Shown in pieces: positions 1-47,017 of a DNA stretch of 47,017 nt. The notes beneath the pieces are model-generated. The model did not search any database. It saw nothing but the letters and a program-made list of their open reading frames with translations, and was not told the DNA's origin. Source of the DNA: a virus. Numbering within the stretch: the first letter of the stretch is position 1; every line of letters starts with the position of its first letter. A program made the translations under genes and the position numbers. The stretch lies in the IMG/VR virus record IMGVR_UViG_3300028920_000104, positions 1 through 47,017 of that record. One strand, 5' to 3'.

Positions 1-3000
1 AATGGTTTGCTTGATGTCCAAACGAGCGGACACGATAAGCTGCCATGTTTCATGCCAGGGCACAAAGTCCAATGTCTGTGTGATGTTGCGACGGAAACCG
101 ACTTTGAAGTGGTCACGGTGCACGATGACAATACGGCCTGTATCAGCCACGTTGCCGCCGCTTGTTACCTTACCATCGGTATCGGCCAGGGCGATTTCAG
201 CGCTCACGAAGACGGGCATACCGTCAAGGATGCCAAGCTGCCCGGTCATGTTCGTGGCGCGTGACCCTGCCTTATCCATCGTCACAAACTCGTCCATATT
301 CAACAGGACGGCTTCAACTTCTGGATGTACAATCATCGCCAGACGGTCAACGCGGGTATTACCAGCAGCCAGCTTGAACCGTAGTTCGCGGATTTTTGCC
401 AGCGTCGGAGCCGCGCCGGAGAAGTTTAGCGCTGATGTTGCGCTGTCGGTCACCAAGCCTTGCTTAATCAGGCCGTTAAACGCCTTGTAGGAGGCAGTAA
501 CGGCGGGTGTACCGCCATCAAGATTGATATTACCGGAAGCAGCGGTGTCACCGTTAACCAGCGTGTTATCAATCGCATCTTCCAATGTGCGGATAGCCTG
601 ACGCCGGAAATGCGGAATGGTTGCCGCAATACCATCTTCTGCCAACTCTGCCGAAATACCAATACGCGTCGCAAGCTTTTGTGCAGACAACGTAATGTTG
701 CTGGTTGAAATCTGGCTATCGGGCAGAGCCGCGCCGGAGCCGCTGATGGTCAGCTGGGCTTCATCGTTTGTCTCACCGACATAGTAAACGGTCGGGTCGC
801 TCGACTCAACGGGGTGTACGTGCGGGTTGGTCGGCATTTCGACTTGCTCGAACAACGGAAGGATAACGTTATCCAGCCGTGAACGTTCCCAAATCTCCTG
901 CCTCCAGCTAGTCGGCACGAACTCATCACCGTATGTCGAAAGCGTCGAGTACATTACTTCGTCGTCCTTGATGGACTTGACAAAGTTAGCCGTCTTTGCA
1001 TCCACGTAGCGGCCGTTCCCGGCTTCACGTTCCAGCTTATCGGCGTACTCACGATAGAATTCCTGCGTAGGACGCCAGTTGCCGGACTTGTAGCCACTGT
1101 TCCACAGGTCAATCGCAAACGACATGTCGTCGGCGCTCATGTTGTGGAACTTGCTCGACACCTGAATACTACTGCCACCCTGCGCAGCGGGACGGCCAGC
1201 GCGCGACTTGCGGTCATTCACTGGAATGTCGGCCTCATTACGTGCGGCCTTCAGTGCCTCGGTCATCTTCTTATCATTCGCAGCGCGGACACGAGCCTGC
1301 GCAGCAAAACCAACAGAAAACAGTGTTTTCATGTTGTCGGAGATGGTTTTCAATACTGCTGACTTAACTTCTTCTTCGTCCATCTTCTGAACGTTTTCAG
1401 GAAGTTCGTCATCCATCTTGGCTTCAACCTCATCGGCCATAGCCTCTGCAACGGCGTTTGACTCTTCTTCGGTCATCTCGCCGTCCTGCTTCATTTTCGC
1501 GTTGTATTCCTCAACAACGGAAATGATGAAATTACGAAGTTCTTCAGGAGACATCGTTCTGTCCTCTTCCTCTTGGTTCTCATCTTCGGATATGTTCAGA
1601 TCACCGTCACGCTCTGCGCTGGCGTTTGCTTCTATGTCTTCTAAAAAGCCCTTAAGCCTTACACCATCGGTCAGCGTCTTGTAGGTGTTAATCTGCGTTA
1701 AACGTGTGGGGTCTGCGGGTGTGGGCGTCAATGCCGCCTCGATAATCTTCCACGTCTTAATGTGGCCGTCTTTTTCAACCTCTACTGATTGCGGCCATGC
1801 CCCGCTTGACCATCCCAGCTTGCCTTTTTTAGCAAGCTCATAAACGGCCTTTTCCCACTCATCGCGCATGTCAAGCTGTGACTGTACCCAAATACCCACG
1901 TTATCTACGCGGGATTTGAGCACGCGCCCGATAGCACGCGAGCCGAGTGTTTCGTCAAGGCCGTGACGGTAGGTGACTGGTTTAGCCTCTACCGGGAAAT
2001 GTTCTAAATCGTAATCCGTGCGGCTGTCGAAGTACTCACCGTCCCAATCTCGAATAGAGTTATCCGAATAGAACGGGACAAGATAGCCTTCAATAATGCC
2101 GTTTGGCATTGCCTTAATTGCACCACCGAAAGCGATGCGCTTATCGTCTGTCATAGTAGCCTCTCTTGATTTGCCGCCCGGTATCGGTGCGTTTGGTTGC
2201 CATGCCCAACAAGCCCAGAACCCTGGCGCGAATGGGTCTTTTTTAGTGCTGCACTGATGGCGTGAATTGAAGTTCCCACGCGCCTCATCATTGTCACGTT
2301 CCATCTGTTCGCCGGGTTGACCCCAGTGCACGAGGCGTTCATCGCCGTCATAGCGCACCCACCGCATGTACTTCTTATCGACTCGCGATGACGGGCGAAC
2401 GGGTGATGCTTGCACCGTCACGCCGTTGTATGTCACGCTGTCAAACGTTGTGTTCTCTGGCGCTTGTTTGGTATTGCTAATCACGCCGTATGGTCGATAG
2501 TCATCGCGTCCAATAATCACGCTGTCTGCAAACGTATCAACTACACCTAATTCACCCGCTGGCGGCTCAATGTCTTTCGGCATGTAGCATAACGTGATAT
2601 GCGGGTTATAGTCGTCCGGCTTGCTAAAATCAGACAAACCGCCGCATAACTCCGACATCCACCTGAATACCTCGGCTTGTGTATCCATGAGTGTTTCCAT
2701 TGGATACAGCCGCACATGTACCGCCCAGCCGTCCGGCGTATCGAATACTTCGACTGTATCGCCGTATACCTCGATGCTATCGGGTAGTTCAACGTTGCTG
2801 ATAACATCGTCTAGTGCGCTGTATGTCCCTTGATTGGCATAGACTAGCGTAATGTGATAGGTGTCTGGTGTTTGCCATTCGATACGGTCATCAGTAAAAC
2901 GCGCTTTTAGTTTTAGTTGAATGTCGCGTATCTGTGCATTGTTCGCCAATGGTATGTATGCAAAACATTCGTTTGACGCTTTCATGTTTTTGACGCGCAT
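1..3000 (-). CDS. Capsid polyprotein: 2H phosphoesterase + RHxC module + prohead protease + major capsid protein (5' 1000 codons)
   Basis: One uninterrupted frame starts at ATG 3000-2998, runs off the left edge and, through the circular junction, ends at TAG 46854-46852: 1012 residues. Modules: (1) residues 1-175, 2H phosphoesterase, with the paired motifs H49-I-T51 and H134-I-T136; (2) about 205-270, a phage module with the signatures RWVRY, LVHWG, NSRHQC and FWACWAW; (3) about 283-435, HK97-type prohead protease (S78), candidate catalytic H346 (YRHGL) and S398/S399 (WSSGAWP), then E421-A-A-L-T; (4) about 436-600, acidic delta/scaffold-like spacer; (5) about 601-1012, HK97-fold major capsid protein. 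ATG 2154, in frame at codon 283, is where a stand-alone protease would normally start. The start at 3000 lacks a strong ribosome site; M6 is an alternative. Protease-capsid fusions are known in phages; the N-terminal 2H unit is the unusual part. The protease is expected to cut the modules apart inside the procapsid (inference). Confidence 0.9.
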   Translation of the reverse strand, partial: MRVKNMKASNECFAYIPLANNAQIRDIQLKLKARFTDDRIEWQTPDTYHITLVYANQGTYSALDDVISNVELPDSIEVYGDTVEVFDTPDGWAVHVRLYPMETLMDTQAEVFRWMSELCGGLSDFSKPDDYNPHITLCYMPKDIEPPAGELGVVDTFADSVIIGRDDYRPYGVISNTKQAPENTTFDSVTYNGVTVQASPVRPSSRVDKKYMRWVRYDGDERLVHWGQPGEQMERDNDEARGNFNSRHQCSTKKDPFAPGFWACWAWQPNAPIPGGKSREATMTDDKRIAFGGAIKAMPNGIIEGYLVPFYSDNSIRDWDGEYFDSRTDYDLEHFPVEAKPVTYRHGLDETLGSRAIGRVLKSRVDNVGIWVQSQLDMRDEWEKAVYELAKKGKLGWSSGAWPQSVEVEKDGHIKTWKIIEAALTPTPADPTRLTQINTYKTLTDGVRLKGFLEDIEANASAERDGDLNISEDENQEEEDRTMSPEELRNFIISVVEEYNAKMKQDGEMTEEESNAVAEAMADEVEAKMDDELPENVQKMDEEEVKSAVLKTISDNMKTLFSVGFAAQARVRAANDKKMTEALKAARNEADIPVNDRKSRAGRPAAQGGSSIQVSSKFHNMSADDMSFAIDLWNSGYKSGNWRPTQEFYREYADKLEREAGNGRYVDAKTANFVKSIKDDEVMYSTLSTYGDEFVPTSWRQEIWERSRLDNVILPLFEQVEMPTNPHVHPVESSDPTVYYVGETNDEAQLTISGSGAALPDSQISTSNITLSAQKLATRIGISAELAEDGIAATIPHFRRQAIRTLEDAIDNTLVNGDTAASGNINLDGGTPAVTASYKAFNGLIKQGLVTDSATSALNFSGAAPTLAKIRELRFKLAAGNTRVDRLAMIVHPEVEAVLLNMDEFVTMDKAGSRATNMTGQLGILDGMPVFVSAEIALADTDGKVTSGGNVADTGRIVIVHRDHFKVGFRRNITQTLDFVPWHETWQLIVSARLDIKQTI

Positions 3001-3074: not shown

Positions 3075-3105
3075 TAAGCATCGAATGATTACGAAAGGTA
3101 TAGTT

Positions 3106-3468
3106 ATGAGTGACAACATTATCACGTATGAAGTATCTGAATTTATCAACCGTGCAATCCGTCAAGCTCTTGAGAACAACGTTGCGATTATGATGTATAA
3201 GAACGCTTTGCAGTCTCCGACGTGGGTTCCGTATGAACCAATGACGGCGCATGTCGTGATGTTTGCCACACCGAAAACAATAAAGTTCCTCGCGGGTGGG
3301 AATTTGGTGTCCACCGCTCTATTCATTCAGGGCAGGGGACACGTCTACCACGACGATGACACTGTAGATTTTACAATCATCTGCAACCCGCACGTGCCCG
3401 ACTTTGCGCTATGTATTCCCGGTCTGCCTGATGTAATGCTTGAAAGCGAGAACGATAATGCTGACTAA
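3106..3468 (+). CDS. Hypothetical protein (120 aa)
   Basis: The protein is not recognised. It is soluble, starts MSDNIITYEVSEF and has no membrane segment or metal-binding motif. ATG 3106 is chosen because GAAAGG lies eight bases upstream and the -10 box at 3069-3074 leaves too little leader for the in-frame ATG at 3085. It is the first gene of a two-gene plus-strand cassette inserted between the MuF gene and the capsid polyprotein, both on the minus strand, so it is transcribed against the late operon. The palindrome at 3034-3056 suggests separate control. A regulatory or early role is possible but unsupported by homology. Confidence 0.65.
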   Translation: MSDNIITYEVSEFINRAIRQALENNVAIMMYKNALQSPTWVPYEPMTAHVVMFATPKTIKFLAGGNLVSTALFIQGRGHVYHDDDTVDFTIICNPHVPDFALCIPGLPDVMLESENDNAD

Positions 3469-3655
3469 CTGCGAAATAGGCGATCTAATCGTCAACTACG
3501 ACGCATCCAACGGTGTGCCCGAAGGCGCTAACGGTATCGTTACGAACGTTACCCGCAACCGTGTGACCGTTGATTTCTTCGAGCATGGTGCAATCACCGT
3601 TGATCCGCGTAAAACGATGGGTATGTACATCGTTGCTATCAAGGCAGATAACTAA
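3458..3655 (+). CDS. Small beta-rich hypothetical protein (65 aa)
   Basis: Not recognised as a family. The sequence alternates short strands and turns (GDLIVNYDASNG, NGIVTNVTRNRVTVDFF), suggesting a small KOW/SH3-like beta barrel; that is inference. The start overlaps the end of the upstream gene by 11 bases, so the two are probably translationally coupled. Its TAA (3653-3655) overlaps the TAG of the convergent MuF gene (3652-3654 on the minus strand), so the opposing genes share stop-codon bases and leave no room for a terminator. Confidence 0.65.
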   Translation: MLTNCEIGDLIVNYDASNGVPEGANGIVTNVTRNRVTVDFFEHGAITVDPRKTMGMYIVAIKADN

Positions 3656-4425
3656 GCGAACAACCCCGCCCCGCTGATGTTGGACACAATCACGCCGTCG
3701 CGTATCTTGATATCACGCCACGCTGTCGCACGTCTTACGCACTCAGGGCAGTGTTCCGCAGCTCCTAAGCGCCATGACGCGGTATAGTTACCGTCGCCAG
3801 CGTCTTTACGGATTGACCACCTGCACTTGCAGTTAGTCAGGCATGACGTTGTGCCGTCTCCCGGTTGAGAGGGCAGGGCGGGTAATCCCATCGCATCCGC
3901 CTTACCATGCTGTAGCGTGGCGTTTGCATTACCCGCGTATAGCCGCCCACGAGATGACACCGCATCAGCGCTTGTAACGCCGTCACGGTCAATCTGCGCT
4001 TTCCAGTTGTCCAGATAACCTAGCTGCTCTTGCACGCGTGCATTCAATCTATCGAGCGCTTGCGCGTCGTAGTTATCCAGTCCACCATGCCCGATGATGT
4101 CAGCGGTTAGGTGTATCTGGCGTATCTCTTGCGCCATGCCATTACGCCACTCAGATGACGTGATGCTGCCGTCTGCAAGCTGTTGCGCCAAATTCTGCAC
4201 ACGCTTGTCATAGTGCTGTGCATAGCGCCGAAACGCCCGGTCGTCCACGCGCGGACTAGATACCCGGTCACGCCTGAAGACGTTCTGAACGCCTGACCAT
4301 GCACGGCGTATCGTTTGAGCGCCCAACGCCTTAAGGCTGGCGTCGGCGTCTTCAAAATCAATCGGCGTTATCGGTGGCGGTGTTGTCGGCTTCTGCTTCG
4401 TCTGCGTCTCGCACTTGTCGCACAA
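3652..4425 (-). CDS. MuF-like phage head morphogenesis protein
   Basis: 257 residues. The N-terminal two thirds is helical. The C-terminal part (about 180-245) has the MuF/SPP1 gp7 signature: LPALPSQPGDGTTSC followed by CLTNCKCRW, with later Cys pair HCPEC. Family members bind the portal and are packaged in small numbers in the procapsid. The gene directly follows the portal gene, the usual MuF position, and its ATG overlaps the portal end by 68 bases, so a later start cannot be excluded. There is no C-terminal toxin or enzyme extension. Confidence 0.8.
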   Translation of the reverse strand: MCDKCETQTKQKPTTPPPITPIDFEDADASLKALGAQTIRRAWSGVQNVFRRDRVSSPRVDDRAFRRYAQHYDKRVQNLAQQLADGSITSSEWRNGMAQEIRQIHLTADIIGHGGLDNYDAQALDRLNARVQEQLGYLDNWKAQIDRDGVTSADAVSSRGRLYAGNANATLQHGKADAMGLPALPSQPGDGTTSCLTNCKCRWSIRKDAGDGNYTASWRLGAAEHCPECVRRATAWRDIKIRDGVIVSNISGAGLFA

Positions 4426-6103
4426 GGTCTTCTAGTCCTAACTCGTCCCACACGTTAACCAACTCAAGGAACGTATGTTCTGTTATCGCGTCTTGCTGCT
4501 TAATACGCGGCTTCACATCGTCGTAAATGGCATCCACGCTTTCACCTGCTTTATGCCGTTCGTTGATCTCATCGCCCAACGTGGTATCCAACTGCACAAA
4601 CTTGAAATCGCGCTTGTACGGTTTCTTCGCGAATTGATACCACTGCGATAACTCATCGCTTGACTTATCGTCGTCTTCCGGCTGGTCACCGGGGTGTGGT
4701 TCTAAGTTGGCTTCCTCTTCGGTATTAGCCGCCTGCGATGGCAACGCGACCGCTTCGCCCTCTAGCTTGTCCACACCGCCTGCTTGCGCCGCTTGTGCCT
4801 GCGATACTGCTACAGGGTCAAAGCCTGACACCATGATTGCGTCAAGCGGCATGAAGCGCACACCCTCTGCCGCGTCGTCTTCGTCCAAGTTGTTAATGCG
4901 CTGGTAGGTGCGAATGTCAATCGCGCCGTTGCGTAGGTGTCGCTCGTATAGCTGCTGGCGTTGCAAGTCGTTTTCGGTCAACCGCTTGCGCCACTTGTCA
5001 TCATTGAACATGAAATACGTATCACCGCTGTCATCGAATAGCGGCAAGATTTCATCGTTCACGACGGTCGCAATATGTCGGGCGTCTGGCAAGATAACCA
5101 AGTCCATCCAGCTATCGTACATGTCTTTGTGCTGCTGGTAGGGCATCTCGGACATATCGCCTGTAATGGCGCGTGGCGTCCGTAACACCTTATGCACGCG
5201 GTTCGATGCACGCTCAATCGCTGCGTCGTTCTGCTGTAAGTTTGGTTGTTGTGGTGCTGTCACCTCTACTTGATCGGGTAACCAAATCGGTTGCCCCGCG
5301 TTGCGATTGCCCTGGTTCTCGCGTCGCATCTTTTTGATAAAATCACGGCGCTTGTTGTCGGTAAACGTAATGCCGTCATCGCTCACAGCCTTGACGCTGA
5401 AAACGTAGCCAAGTTGTAACCCGTTCTGGAAGAAGTTGTTAATCTGCTGTTTGTATGTCCGGTCAAGGTTGATGCTATCAATAGCCGCCATGACAGGCGA
5501 CATACCGATGTTTTCGTTCAGCAGGTTTAACTTGCGGTCATAGATAATCTCATCAGGGCGGAAGCGCAGCGCTTCCCCGTCACCGTTGTAGCGATACTCG
5601 ACAATGCGCCCGTTGATTTCCTGAACGACCATGCCAGTCGGGTTATACCACTGCAATTGGCGGTAGGCGCTACCAAGTATATCCATCTGCGGCTCAATAA
5701 ACATCTTCCCCGCAACGAGTGATGAATAGTACCATGCTGTGAACAGGTCGAAGCCGTTCATGCGTCGGAACTTGTTAATCGCTTTCGCGACGGTATGCCG
5801 GGGTGCTTGGTCTTCCGAAGAACACAACACCTCGTCGTCTTCCTGTACGGTGTCGCCTTCGTAGCGCCTAATCTGCCACTCGAGGCCAGATAGCGCATTG
5901 ACACGCGCCTCAAGGCAGGCGTATATGTCCTCTTGGATAACCGCCGCCGTCGCCGCGCCATGATCCGTACGTGCGATCTTCAAGTCCTTGCCGACAAACG
6001 CGGGGTCGTCTAATAGCCAATCGTTTGCGCCATACATCCACACGCCGGACTTGACCGCTCTATTGTTTGGTAACAAGCTCTTAAGCCCGTCTAGTATGCC
6101 CAC
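4358..6103 (-). CDS. Portal protein
   Basis: 581 residues. The start is GTG 6103, directly after the terminase stop TAA. The protein forms the dodecameric ring through which DNA enters and leaves the head. It resembles HK97/phi29-type portals: an early alpha/beta region (LARVNALSGLEWQIRR-like segment near residues 65-80), a central stem (SPVMAAIDSINLDRTYKQQ) and a downstream NRVHKVLRTPRAITGD segment typical of portals that choose among fusion/crown helices. The C-terminal tail (about 440-581) is acidic and low-complexity. Position between terminase and MuF supports the call. Confidence 0.9.
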   Translation of the reverse strand: MGILDGLKSLLPNNRAVKSGVWMYGANDWLLDDPAFVGKDLKIARTDHGAATAAVIQEDIYACLEARVNALSGLEWQIRRYEGDTVQEDDEVLCSSEDQAPRHTVAKAINKFRRMNGFDLFTAWYYSSLVAGKMFIEPQMDILGSAYRQLQWYNPTGMVVQEINGRIVEYRYNGDGEALRFRPDEIIYDRKLNLLNENIGMSPVMAAIDSINLDRTYKQQINNFFQNGLQLGYVFSVKAVSDDGITFTDNKRRDFIKKMRRENQGNRNAGQPIWLPDQVEVTAPQQPNLQQNDAAIERASNRVHKVLRTPRAITGDMSEMPYQQHKDMYDSWMDLVILPDARHIATVVNDEILPLFDDSGDTYFMFNDDKWRKRLTENDLQRQQLYERHLRNGAIDIRTYQRINNLDEDDAAEGVRFMPLDAIMVSGFDPVAVSQAQAAQAGGVDKLEGEAVALPSQAANTEEEANLEPHPGDQPEDDDKSSDELSQWYQFAKKPYKRDFKFVQLDTTLGDEINERHKAGESVDAIYDDVKPRIKQQDAITEHTFLELVNVWDELGLEDLVRQVRDADEAEADNTATDNAD

Positions 6104-7519
6104 TTAAAACCCTTCCAGCGGTGAAACGTAATGTATCATGCGGTTTGCTAGTGCACGCGCAATCACGGTGTCATCGTGCGACCCGTTAGGCGCTTCGTAT
6201 TTCCAATGGCCGTTTGGCGTCTGCCGGACTTCAAACTTGCGTAACTCATCGTCTCCGGATTCATCACGTAATAGGTGCAAGCCTCCCGTTTCAAGCGCGT
6301 GATACATACCCTTGATGAGCGGTGGCTTACTCTTGACCGTCATGTTAAACGCCATGATGTCTATATCGCTGCCTAAGAAATGGTCGTCAATGTTTTCAAC
6401 CAGCATGTGATCAAAGTTGCGCTCGATGATGGCGACGCGTGGTTGCCACTTCTCGATTGTAGCAATAATCTTGTCCGCTATGCCCGTCATCGGTAGACGG
6501 TTAAACCTGACAAGCTCTACCTCCGTCTGCGTCTGTACATCTATGACGCTTATTACTGTGAAGTCGTTACTCTGCCCGATGTCCACGCCTAGCACGTATT
6601 CACGCCCTTGCTGCGGTGTGGCGTGGGGATTGCTAATCAGACGCTCGTTCAAATGCGGAATGCTGGCGAAATAACCAGCGCCGGACGCCAGGAAGCATGA
6701 GCGCGGGTCGGTCGGGTACTCTTGTTCAAATGTGCGCTTATCCGATTCGCTGATTTTCCAGCGCCGCCAATTAAGCTGTCCAACTGTAACGCCGTAGCGC
6801 TCAATTAAATCTTCTTCTTCTGGCGTCGGATTAAGTTCTTCGCCGTCCGCTAACGGCTTGATGTATTCAGGGTGATTAAACCATGCGTAAAAGTGAAGTG
6901 TCCATGCGCTTTTTTGGTCGTTCAGCGCTTCCATGCAGCGTTCAAAAAACCAGCCGTGTGCGCCGTTAGCGGTGCTCTCGGCAACCACCCACATTGGACG
7001 ACCGCCCTGCAATGCCGACTTCATAATGCTACCTGCGTCGGGGTACATCGCGATTTCACTGTAGTGTTGGATGCGATAACTACCTGCGCGGCCTACGTTG
7101 GTATTACCCGCCGTACCCGATAGCACCTCGCTATTATACTCAGGGTAAATCGTCAGCGTCGCATTGCTAATACTGCGCTTTGGCCTGAAGTGCTCCGGCA
7201 GGTTGTTATAAAACTTATCCTGTATCAAGCGCATCTTGGTTGTGTTTGCGCCTTCGTCGGTCAATGTGAGCGACCGTGTAGGACGGGTCACACTATACCG
7301 AAAAATCTCTGCTTGTATCGCCGTGCTAAATCCAATCTGGCGCGGCTTCAAGATTAAATCGCGTGATGTCCTGTGCTGCAAGTAATGGATTTGCAGCGGG
7401 TTCATCTTGAACGACACAATATGGTCGTCTTTGTCTTGTATCTTGAGATAGTTCAGCGCGAACAGGTAAGGCGATTTTGCAATACGCTTGAACTTATCCG
7501 CCTGTGCAGATGCCACCAT
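6104..7519 (-). CDS. terL: Terminase large subunit
   Basis: 471 residues; the ATPase and nuclease motor that packages DNA into the prohead. Walker A-like KPRQIGFS at 58-65; Walker B ending HYSE155; coupling motif ESTANG near 181-186; RNase-H-like nuclease with candidate acidic residues D313 (GVDIGQSND), E366 (IIERNFD) and D449/D450 (GSHDDT). The length is normal for a compact TerL. It begins by a TAATG overlap with the small-subunit gene. Confidence 0.93.
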   Translation of the reverse strand: MVASAQADKFKRIAKSPYLFALNYLKIQDKDDHIVSFKMNPLQIHYLQHRTSRDLILKPRQIGFSTAIQAEIFRYSVTRPTRSLTLTDEGANTTKMRLIQDKFYNNLPEHFRPKRSISNATLTIYPEYNSEVLSGTAGNTNVGRAGSYRIQHYSEIAMYPDAGSIMKSALQGGRPMWVVAESTANGAHGWFFERCMEALNDQKSAWTLHFYAWFNHPEYIKPLADGEELNPTPEEEDLIERYGVTVGQLNWRRWKISESDKRTFEQEYPTDPRSCFLASGAGYFASIPHLNERLISNPHATPQQGREYVLGVDIGQSNDFTVISVIDVQTQTEVELVRFNRLPMTGIADKIIATIEKWQPRVAIIERNFDHMLVENIDDHFLGSDIDIMAFNMTVKSKPPLIKGMYHALETGGLHLLRDESGDDELRKFEVRQTPNGHWKYEAPNGSHDDTVIARALANRMIHYVSPLEGF

Positions 7520-13157: not shown

Positions 13158-13994
13158 GTGTTAGCCCTTCCCGAATACGCCATACGCGACAATACGATCC
13201 ATCACACCGACCTGTTTTCGCTGTGTCGGGCGTTGCCTTCGCAGTCGGTTGACATGATACTATGTGATTTACCATATGGTACGACGGCGTGTAGTTGGGA
13301 TAGCATCATTCCTATGGAGCCAATGTGGGACGCGTTCAAGCGGATTATCAAGCCACGCGGGGCTATTGTGCTGACGGCTACGGAGCCATTTGCTAGCCGC
13401 TTGCGTATGTCATGGATAGATGGTTATAAGTATGATTGGGTATGGGATAAACGCCGTCATGCCAATTTTTTTAATGCAAAAGTTATGCCTTTGATGCACC
13501 ATGAATTAATTCTTGTCTTCGGATTTAAACCCGTGTATTTCCCACAAGACACTCAAAGGGTTGATTCCGAAAGAACAAAATATCCACGCGTTCATGGAAG
13601 GTACAAAAAGCAAAACGGTGGTGCATTTGTTGGTGGTCATAAAGAAGTTATTGACGTACATACCAATACAACTAATAGATACCCCGGCAGCATTTTAGAA
13701 TTTGCGCGGGATAGTTTTGGGAACTTACACCCCACACAGAAGCCCGTCGCCTTGTTCGAATACCTGATTAAGACCTACACCCAACCGGGCGAACTTGTAT
13801 TTGATCCATGCGTCGGCAGCGGTACAACGGCGGTCGCTGCACATAAGACCGGACGCCGTTACATCTGCGGAGACATCACACGCGAATACGTAGACATTGC
13901 ACGCCAGCGGGTCATCGACAGCGATCCATACCAACCGAAAAAAGTAAGCGACAGCGCGACACAGCTTAGTCTATTTGAGGAGCCACGCACATGA
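13158..13994 (+). CDS. Adenine-N6/cytosine-N4 DNA methyltransferase (beta class)
   Basis: 278 residues from a GTG start with TTAGGAG in front. Motif IV DLPY at 37-40 precedes motif I (FDPCVGSGTTAV, about 216-227), which is the beta-class order. The sequence ILEFARDSFGNLHPTQKPVALFEYL-type segment before motif I is typical of phage and type III-like enzymes. It methylates phage DNA and probably shields it from restriction; no partner endonuclease is present. It overlaps the next gene by ATGA. Confidence 0.92.
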   Translation: MLALPEYAIRDNTIHHTDLFSLCRALPSQSVDMILCDLPYGTTACSWDSIIPMEPMWDAFKRIIKPRGAIVLTATEPFASRLRMSWIDGYKYDWVWDKRRHANFFNAKVMPLMHHELILVFGFKPVYFPQDTQRVDSERTKYPRVHGRYKKQNGGAFVGGHKEVIDVHTNTTNRYPGSILEFARDSFGNLHPTQKPVALFEYLIKTYTQPGELVFDPCVGSGTTAVAAHKTGRRYICGDITREYVDIARQRVIDSDPYQPKKVSDSATQLSLFEEPRT

Positions 13995-18735: not shown

Positions 18736-19767
18736 ATGAAAGCAGTTAGTTTATTTTCAGGAATTGGCGGAATAGACATCGGTCTGTCCGCAGCTGGTTT
18801 TGACGTAATAGCACAGGTGGAAATTGATGAATACTGTCAGCAAGTCCTCACAAAGCACAGCCGCAACTGGTGGCCTAACTCAGTTATCTATGATGACGTT
18901 AGAGAGTTCGGAGCCGATAGCATCAACGGACAACGCATCGACATCCTCACTGGCGGCTTTCCTTGCCAACCATTTAGTCACGCAGGCAAACGCCTTGCGG
19001 AAGATGATAACCGCAACATGTGGCCAGCCACCCGGCGCATTATTAGCGAGATACGACCGCGAGCACTCCTACTGGAAAACGTCAAGGGGCTTATCACTCA
19101 AAACAAAGGTGAACCCGGATACTTGGGAACTGTCCTTGCTGACCTTTCCGAAATGGGCTATGTGTGTGGATATGGAATTATATCCGCTGCCGATGCCGGA
19201 GCAAGCCACCGACGAGAGCGCGTATGGATTGTGGCCTACAGTAAGAACGCGGGGCATGATAGGAGGGTCAGCGCACAAACAGATGTTCCTGAAGCATCTA
19301 ACAGAAGAGAATGTGGGCGAGTACAGCGCAATGTCAGGTCTAAATCTATGGGCTACGCCACAGCGAACGGACGGAACCGCAGCCGCAATCATAGGCGAGA
19401 ACGACGAATACTACCAAACAAAAACGGGCGTATGGCGCAAGGTAAGCGGCAACGGCGTAGACGGGAGTATGGGGCTACCCCGTCAAGCGCAAGCGCAAAA
19501 CTGGACGCCAGGAGAACCGCCCAAAGCGTTAGGAAGTCTAAACGCCTATTGGACGGAAGCCCTTATGGGATACCCTCCTGGCTGGACACGCCTGAGTTCC
19601 CCGCGCCGCAGGGATTACATCAGTATGAATGGGAACCGCCGCGCACAGTCGATAAATCACAGCAATACAGGCGGCAAAGGATACAGGCGATCGGTAACGC
19701 GGTCGTCCCGCAGATTGTCTATTACATCGCGAAAGAAATCTACAAGACGTTGGAGCCAAAACCATGA
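18736..19767 (+). CDS. C5-cytosine DNA methyltransferase
   Basis: 343 residues with a full motif set: I FSGIGGIDIGLSAAGF (7-22), II VEID (28-31), IV GGFPCQPF with catalytic C77, VI LLENV (112-116), VIII HRRERVWI (158-165), and GNAVVP (320-325). The region 170-300 is Arg/Asn/Ser-rich and would be the target-recognition part. It methylates cytosine to 5-methylcytosine, probably as protection from restriction. Unusual: the +1 frame of the same DNA stays open for 315 codons and reads as conserved protein (next entry). Confidence 0.9.
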   Translation: MKAVSLFSGIGGIDIGLSAAGFDVIAQVEIDEYCQQVLTKHSRNWWPNSVIYDDVREFGADSINGQRIDILTGGFPCQPFSHAGKRLAEDDNRNMWPATRRIISEIRPRALLLENVKGLITQNKGEPGYLGTVLADLSEMGYVCGYGIISAADAGASHRRERVWIVAYSKNAGHDRRVSAQTDVPEASNRRECGRVQRNVRSKSMGYATANGRNRSRNHRRERRILPNKNGRMAQGKRQRRRREYGATPSSASAKLDARRTAQSVRKSKRLLDGSPYGIPSWLDTPEFPAPQGLHQYEWEPPRTVDKSQQYRRQRIQAIGNAVVPQIVYYIAKEIYKTLEPKP

Positions 19768-46851: not shown

Positions 46852-47017
46852 CTAAACGCCGACGTTGTAGCCAACCACGACGGAACGAGCAATGGTTTGC
46901 TTGATGTCCAAACGAGCGGACACGATAAGCTGCCATGTTTCATGCCAGGGCACAAAGTCCAATGTCTGTGTGATGTTGCGACGGAAACCGACTTTGAAGT
47001 GGTCACGGTGCACGATT
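46852..47017 (-). CDS. Capsid polyprotein, 3' end (repeats bases 1-126)
   Basis: Contains the last codons of the gene that starts at 3000: HETWQLIVSARLDIKQTIA, then RSVVVGYNVGV and TAG (46854-46852). This C-terminal pattern is typical of HK97-like capsid proteins. Codon phase from 3000 is kept across the junction if 46891 equals base 1 (3036 bases, 1012 codons). Confidence 0.9.
   Translation of the reverse strand, partial: IVHRDHFKVGFRRNITQTLDFVPWHETWQLIVSARLDIKQTIARSVVVGYNVGV
46891..47017. repeat. Terminal overlap with bases 1-126
   Basis: 126 identical bases, then one mismatch at the very last base (T at 47017, G at 127). It is best explained by an assembly closed on itself (circular or circularly permuted DNA), not by a genomic terminal repeat, since an open reading frame is continuous across the join. 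Confidence 0.85.

Follow-up and report, generated by a model that had tools for sequence, protein, structure and literature searches.

A circular viral contig encodes a head polyprotein with a 2H phosphoesterase, a prohead protease and an HK97-type capsid protein

In phage lambda, the head protease and the scaffold are nested in one gene, C/Nu3, by means of an internal start. Another arrangement of head genes has been described in which a 2H phosphoesterase is fused to a MuF or portal protein, and it was proposed that such enzymes are packaged and injected (Iyer et al. 2017, PMC5512222; again in 2022, PMC9503650), with either RNase action or the destruction of nucleotide signals as their function. 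Here we analyzed IMG/VR virus record IMGVR_UViG_3300028920_000104 over its full 47,017 nucleotides (hereafter the window), in which a single gene joins a 2H phosphoesterase to a prohead protease and a major capsid protein.

A head polyprotein that begins with a 2H domain

The viral contig is circular and has 46,890 unique bases, because positions 1-127 are repeated exactly at 46891-47017 as a 127-bp end overlap. One intact minus-strand frame begins at ATG 3000, reaches position 1, continues from 46890 and, after 1012 codons, ends at the stop codon 46854-46852. An in-frame TGA is located 15 bases ahead of ATG 3000, which is therefore the first possible start. A previous sequence-only reading had placed four modules in this frame. 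All of them were found (2H, RHxC/WxC, protease and capsid), and the frame was open from ATG 3000 across the circular junction, with no stop or frameshift. From the N- to the C-terminus the order is 2H, RHxC/WxC mini-domain, S78-type prohead protease, scaffold-like linker and HK97-type capsid protein, and we regard the gene and its module assignment as practically certain. The features are as follows.

1..127, no strand: end overlap, identical to 46891-47017
1..3000, minus strand: polyprotein residues 1-1000, translated from ATG 3000
46852..46890, minus strand: polyprotein residues 1001-1012 (46855-46890) and stop codon (46852-46854), past the circular junction
2467..2976, minus strand: 2H phosphoesterase domain, residues 9-178, from Pfam, relatives, AlphaFold model and fold; HIT at 49-51 and 134-136
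2185..2451, minus strand: RHxC/WxC mini-domain, residues 184-272; relatives have the same unit in a portal-MuF protein or at the N-terminus of a protease
1711..2106, minus strand: S78-type prohead protease, residues 299-430, from invariant residues (S398/S399 among them) and Pfam matches of relatives
1201..1554, minus strand: putative scaffold (delta)-like acidic region, residues 483-600, assigned from the alignment and from its position between protease and capsid core
1..1158, with the last 12 residues at 46855-46890, minus strand: HK97-type major capsid protein core, residues ~615-1000, from PHROG and from Phage_capsid matches in L005 and L046

The 2H domain matched the Pfam profile LigT_PEase over residues 21-70 above the cut-off (3.7e-5). 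The Acb1 profile matched residues 45-145 (2.1e-4) at 21.5 bits, below the cut-off of 27, and direct membership in the Acb1 family was rejected on this score; the best Acb1 score among the relatives, 26.3 bits in L039, was also sub-threshold. The two HxT motifs, H49-T51 and H134-T136, are exactly 85 residues apart, as had been reported. These four residues are kept throughout a nine-member 2H alignment, and both motifs are intact in 12 of 12 2H copies. When a profile of this alignment was used for searching, solved enzymes of the LigT/CPDase type (RNA 2',3'-cyclic phosphodiesterase-type) came first, at 8.6e-7 to 1.1e-5, followed by the penguinpox cGAMP phosphodiesterase (0.0026) and, weakly, phage Acb1 (0.09).

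The AlphaFold model of residues 1-180 (pLDDT 87.3, pTM 0.83) agreed with the proposal that the HxT region would match 2H structures. It came closest to drCPDase, with Z 17.0, and to E. coli LigT, which aligned over 162 residues with Z 16.6; Usb1 and AKAP18 followed at Z ~14.7, ahead of Acb1, MHV ns2 and rotavirus VP3. Acb1 was absent from the best 50 Foldseek matches of the model; it appeared in further structural alignment (Z 11.9), where its sequence identity of 21-23% exceeded that of every other structure listed. From the model and the alignment, the domain almost certainly has a 2H fold with an intact active site, and the modelled fold resembles LigT/ThpR more closely than Acb1.

The capsid part belongs by profile match to the HK97-type major capsid proteins: the PHROG family of major head proteins (phrog_10) matched residues 300-946 (1.3e-19), and Phage_capsid matched the corresponding proteins of L005 (3.8e-10) and L046 (5.7e-10). 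The S78 profile gave no match in the window protein itself. Among the relatives, Peptidase_S78 matched L032 above the cut-off (3e-6) and L012, L037 and L038 below it. H346, S398-S399-G and E421 are invariant in three sequences, and the H and the SSG are still invariant in five.

A search for the same order in other genomes was successful. The virus L005 (IMG/VR 3300012002_000098) encodes a 954-aa 2H-protease-capsid protein, 37% identical to that of the window and without the RHxC unit. A 918-aa version is present in L046, which is probably a prophage because it lies on a 2.7-Mb Anaerolineaceae contig, and a 951-aa version in L093, from Chloroflexota. The fusion thus occurs in four genomes including the window, and it is not a product of chance, since an independent virus has the same order at 37% identity and L046 and L093 repeat it.

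Internal start signals and a probable nested gene

Two internal ATG codons of the polyprotein gene are preceded by sequences resembling a Shine-Dalgarno (SD) sequence.

2160..2166, minus strand: SD-like agagagg before M283
2152..2154, minus strand: internal ATG M283, which in the alignment falls where the L004 protease-capsid gene naturally starts
1563..1574, minus strand: purine-rich SD-like aagaggaagagg before M483
1552..1554, minus strand: internal ATG M483 at the protease/scaffold boundary, the predicted start of the main capsid precursor of 530 aa

The SD sequences at the boundary ATG are aagaggaagaggacagaacgATG for M483 of the window, where GAGG is 8 nt ahead of the codon, AAGGAAGG for M401 of L005 and ATAGGAG for M212 of L004. 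We compared all ATGs of the protease/scaffold linkers with the other codons of the same linkers, which controls for purine-rich linker codons. An SD-led ATG was present in the linker of 11 of 12 viral protease-capsid fusions; in these 12 fusions an SD preceded 13 of 40 linker ATGs and 116 of 1040 other codons (p = 4e-4). Fusions from bacterial genomes had at least one SD-led linker ATG in 52 of 59 cases. There, 65 of 243 linker ATGs had an SD. Among the other codons of the linkers the count was 501 of 7331 (p = 9e-21), and among ATGs elsewhere it was 40 of 510 (p = 1e-11). The sequences are related, and all of these p-values overstate the independent evidence through shared ancestry and are not to be taken literally.

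This conservation suggests that the internal start at the protease/scaffold boundary is very probably used, which implies a nested gene like lambda C/Nu3 with the 2H form as a minority. The sequence-only reading had each capsid subunit carry a 2H unit. We rejected this in favor of nested starts, because the conserved SD-led boundary ATG implies that most subunits would be without 2H and protease. A T=7 procapsid of HK97 size has ~415 subunits, and 482 extra residues (~53 kDa) on each of them would fill well over half of it; nested starts would also answer this worry about packing. The conserved internal start would also explain how a capsid-fused protease can avoid loading every subunit with protease. 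A literature search for protease-capsid fusions with internal starts, in which subscription journals were thinly covered, found nothing on point.

Carriers of 2H and RHxC units in related genomes

We then considered which proteins carry the 2H domain elsewhere. A 2H-protease-scaffold protein with a separate capsid gene is present in L033 and L041, where protease and capsid were called by eye. L042 and 15 Arthrobacter and Microbacterium phage records have 2H joined to an XkdF-type protease, and in three such phage proteins examined both domains (PF13563 and PF14550) exceeded the Pfam cut-offs. The 2H domain is located between the portal and a MuF-like C-terminus in L007, L010, L036, L037, L038, L039 and L105, and together with MuF and a DUF2213 unit in one protein of L008. 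The capsid proteins of L037, L038 and L105 are of the window's own family; thus, within one capsid family, 2H is on the capsid polyprotein or on the portal depending on the genome. Exactly one 2H was present in 9 of 10 records searched, several of which are fragments, and none in L004. Searches against cultured phages gave no match for the window 2H alone and none for the 2H-protease of L033.

These comparisons show that the 2H carrier has changed, while the number of changes is not fixed by the trees. The capsid tree, which came from a short search and has long branches, needs at least five changes of carrier state. For the 2H tree, placing all protease/capsid-borne 2H in a single clade was not rejected (p 0.12). 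Repeated hopping of 2H between carriers was not established, given the short search and long branches of the first tree and the p value of the second.

All of the 2H carriers are of protein types that are located inside the head (portal, MuF, scaffold and protease). The recurrence of 2H on other inner head proteins therefore fits packaging, and it suggests that 2H may be a cargo that helps the next infection. The argument rests on the shared head-interior location of the carriers, as it does in PMC5512222 and PMC9503650.

The RHxC/WxC unit moves as well. That of the window is 72% identical to the unit in the portal-MuF protein of L005 (L005:8034-8286) and 80% identical to the unit on the portal of L004 (L004:788-1042), both compared with window positions 2185-2451. 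Between the compared loci, identity is far below that of RHxC for the 2H parts (33%) and for the protease-capsid parts (30-39%), and at the DNA level RHxC is the best-matching stretch, with 78.6% identity over 252 bp in L004 and 73.5% over 272 bp in L005. Proteins with the order RHxC-protease-capsid were found in L031 and L032, and RHxC-protease in L027-L030. By these comparisons RHxC/WxC is a mobile head module whose carrier switches between portal/MuF and protease/capsid. A PHROG family of unassigned function (phrog_7595) matched window residues 195-265 (0.0027), and DUF5754 matches to RHxC stayed below the cut-off. The RHxC model was only fair (pLDDT 79.5), and Foldseek gave no significant match for it (best E 0.19). 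RHxC relatives in cultured Roseobacter, Pelagibacter and Flavobacterium phages are annotated as hypothetical or 'HVA1 family' proteins.

Among the genome contigs examined (L046-L108), ~50 Chloroflexota genomes, mostly Anaerolineae, have a protease-capsid fusion of 579-670 aa without 2H, which forms one tree group. A head can thus be built without 2H, if those genes are functional; the fusion is a candidate for a domesticated capsid, a gene transfer agent or a prophage remnant. The protease His motif is kept in nearly all chromosomal fusions. In L066:7965-9755, L078:7965-9743 and L054:7968-9971 the fusion is set among bacterial genes (copper chaperone, SDR and AraC regulator; DsbA-like; AHSA1 and Eco57I-type restriction-modification), with no portal or terminase match in the 16-18 kb of each locus examined. 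A portal-like gene is near the fusion at 13 other chromosomal loci, and a downstream gene common to 17 chromosomal loci is head-tail connector-like by eye. Nearly all capsid relatives found in genomes come from Anaerolineae and their kin, so the host of the window virus is probably a Chloroflexota bacterium.

Head genes without 2H are located upstream of the polyprotein gene in the window.

6104..7519, minus strand: terminase large subunit
4358..6103, minus strand: portal protein without 2H
3652..4425, minus strand: MuF-like minor head protein without 2H, matching phrog_24776 (function unassigned), with a Cys-rich C-terminus; called MuF from position and Cys pattern only

Because these genes are upstream on the same strand, the polyprotein gene is part of the head gene cluster. 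A plus-strand ORF of 127 aa (3085-3468) with no Pfam match separates the MuF-like gene from the start of the polyprotein gene; given this opposite-strand ORF, the polyprotein gene may be transcribed from a separate promoter in the short divergent gap. Two plus-strand DNA methyltransferase genes, at 13158-13994 and 18736-19767 (PHROG 1.6e-60 and 1.2e-67), are a possible anti-restriction set. Elsewhere, L008:7341-10574 encodes 1077 aa with an N-terminal ADP-ribosyltransferase-like region (by eye), 2H, MuF, DUF2213 and a scaffold-like tail. Arthrobacter phage Laroye gp18 (L043:4369-5490, NC_041947) and its homologues consist of 2H and XkdF protease, and such products are variously annotated as 'RNA ligase', 'aldolase class I' or 'capsid maturation protease' across closely related phages; the first two of these names should be reconsidered in the Arthrobacter phages.

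Proposed role and comparison with known systems

The explanation that we favor, and to which we give an even chance as a whole, is a nested head gene whose minority 2H arms are packaged, injected and active in cleaving a nucleotide linkage. In the scheme that we infer, from internal-start use through cleavage, retention and injection to the substrate, the main product would start at M483 and, as a scaffold-capsid precursor, build the shell. A minority product from ATG 3000, and perhaps another from M283, would add the prohead protease and the 2H enzyme in front. The minority chains would co-assemble via the common capsid part, so that a limited number of 2H-RHxC-protease arms face the procapsid interior, where the protease would cut the 2H-bearing arms free. 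Part of the freed 2H would remain in the head and enter the next host with the DNA, and there it would cleave a linkage of the 2',3'-cyclic, 2'-5' or small cyclic nucleotide type, the most probable target being a nucleotide alarm signal or damaged RNA. Head packaging of 2H is likely, and we consider its entry into procapsids probable; injection as a counter-defence is plausible, the chance that 2H is kept in virions and injected being slightly short of even, and action on an immune nucleotide signal is more doubtful. It is a tentative and rather unlikely extension that the protease-capsid gene serves as a dosing device in Chloroflexota and other hosts, in which the internal start makes the shell and a metered minority of long chains brings a 2H phosphodiesterase into the head, to be released there by the protease as cargo that erases a nucleotide alarm signal before phage expression.

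Several points weigh against the favored explanation, in addition to the relatedness behind the p-values given above. By duplex energy, M483 is not the top scorer among the internal ATGs of the window. The SD of ATG 3000 is poor and that of M283 good, so the long form may be rare in the window. The modelled fold leaves the 2H substrate undecided, and, to our knowledge, a packaged 2H has never yet been demonstrated.

The same SD contrast could mean that little or no long form is produced, with translation from M283 or M483 and the 2H stretch as a remnant, and the L004 gene does start at the residue matching M283. Yet 282 in-frame codons without a stop, with intact 2H catalytic residues and a well-modelled domain, speak against this; the 2H forms of L005, L033, L046 and L093 start with good SDs, and some other window genes are also without an obvious SD. 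We consider this quite improbable. Hardly more probable is that 2H and RHxC serve head assembly, as scaffold, in protease recruitment or in size control, with catalysis incidental. Both units are N-terminal to protease and scaffold, and the RHxC-protease-capsid proteins of L031 and L032 do without 2H. On the other hand, ~50 related protease-capsid proteins have neither unit (some are maybe not functional capsids), 2H also occurs in portal-MuF proteins and on unrelated proteases, and the catalytic tetrad is undecayed in the 12 2H copies. The scaffold role that the sequence-only reading had offered for 2H is disfavored for this reason, since relatives of the same type lack 2H while every 2H copy keeps its HxT motifs.

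A stronger competitor, though still on the unlikely side, accepts packaging and injection and has 2H act on RNA, either on 2',3'-cyclic ends for repair of cut tRNA or as a Usb1-like RNase. The order of the folds, with LigT/ThpR and drCPDase first, then Usb1 and AKAP18, and Acb1 behind them, argues for it, as does the profile search that meets RNA 2',3'-cyclic phosphodiesterase-type enzymes first, and RNase action is one of the options listed by Iyer et al. 2017 (PMC5512222). However, nearness of fold does not fix a substrate, no structure listed has a higher sequence identity than Acb1, which also gives a sub-threshold Pfam match, and no RNA ligase was found among the window genes scanned, which were part of the gene set.

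If the favored explanation is true, a counter-defence enzyme packaged in the head would be active ahead of the first phage transcript, as no enzyme that must first be expressed can be, and a protease-capsid gene would be a simple means to meter and release such cargo. The question of packaging can already be tested in the cultured Arthrobacter phages that encode a 2H-protease protein.

Of the known systems, the 2H-MuF/portal proteins of Iyer et al. 2017 resemble the window in that 2H is fused to a protein located inside the head of a terminase-portal phage. The window carrier differs in being a protease-scaffold-capsid polyprotein with a conserved and, as we propose, dosage-limiting internal start, and no protease-capsid carrier of 2H was found in the part of PMC5512222 covered. 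Packaging and injection of head-fused 2H had already been proposed and are not new; the protease-capsid carrier, the predicted nested start and the cultured 2H-protease phages are added here. The anti-CBASS nuclease Acb1 of T4/FBB1 (PMC9117128) shares the 2H fold and two HxT motifs with the window, but it is a solo protein, and its Pfam profile matches the window only below the cut-off. Among solved structures, E. coli LigT/ThpR and Deinococcus CPDase have the closest folds (Z 16-17 over nearly the full length), but they are cellular solo enzymes with 14-16% identity and no capsid link. Laroye gp18 and gp7 of Microbacterium phage ValentiniPuff also carry 2H on the N-terminal side of a phage serine protease (XkdF, PF14550), although this is another protease family and the capsid protein is a separate gene. 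In lambda C/Nu3, as predicted for the window, a long form with the protease and a short form with the scaffold have a common C-terminus through an internal in-frame start; in the window, this common C-terminus is the capsid protein itself, and 2H heads the long form.

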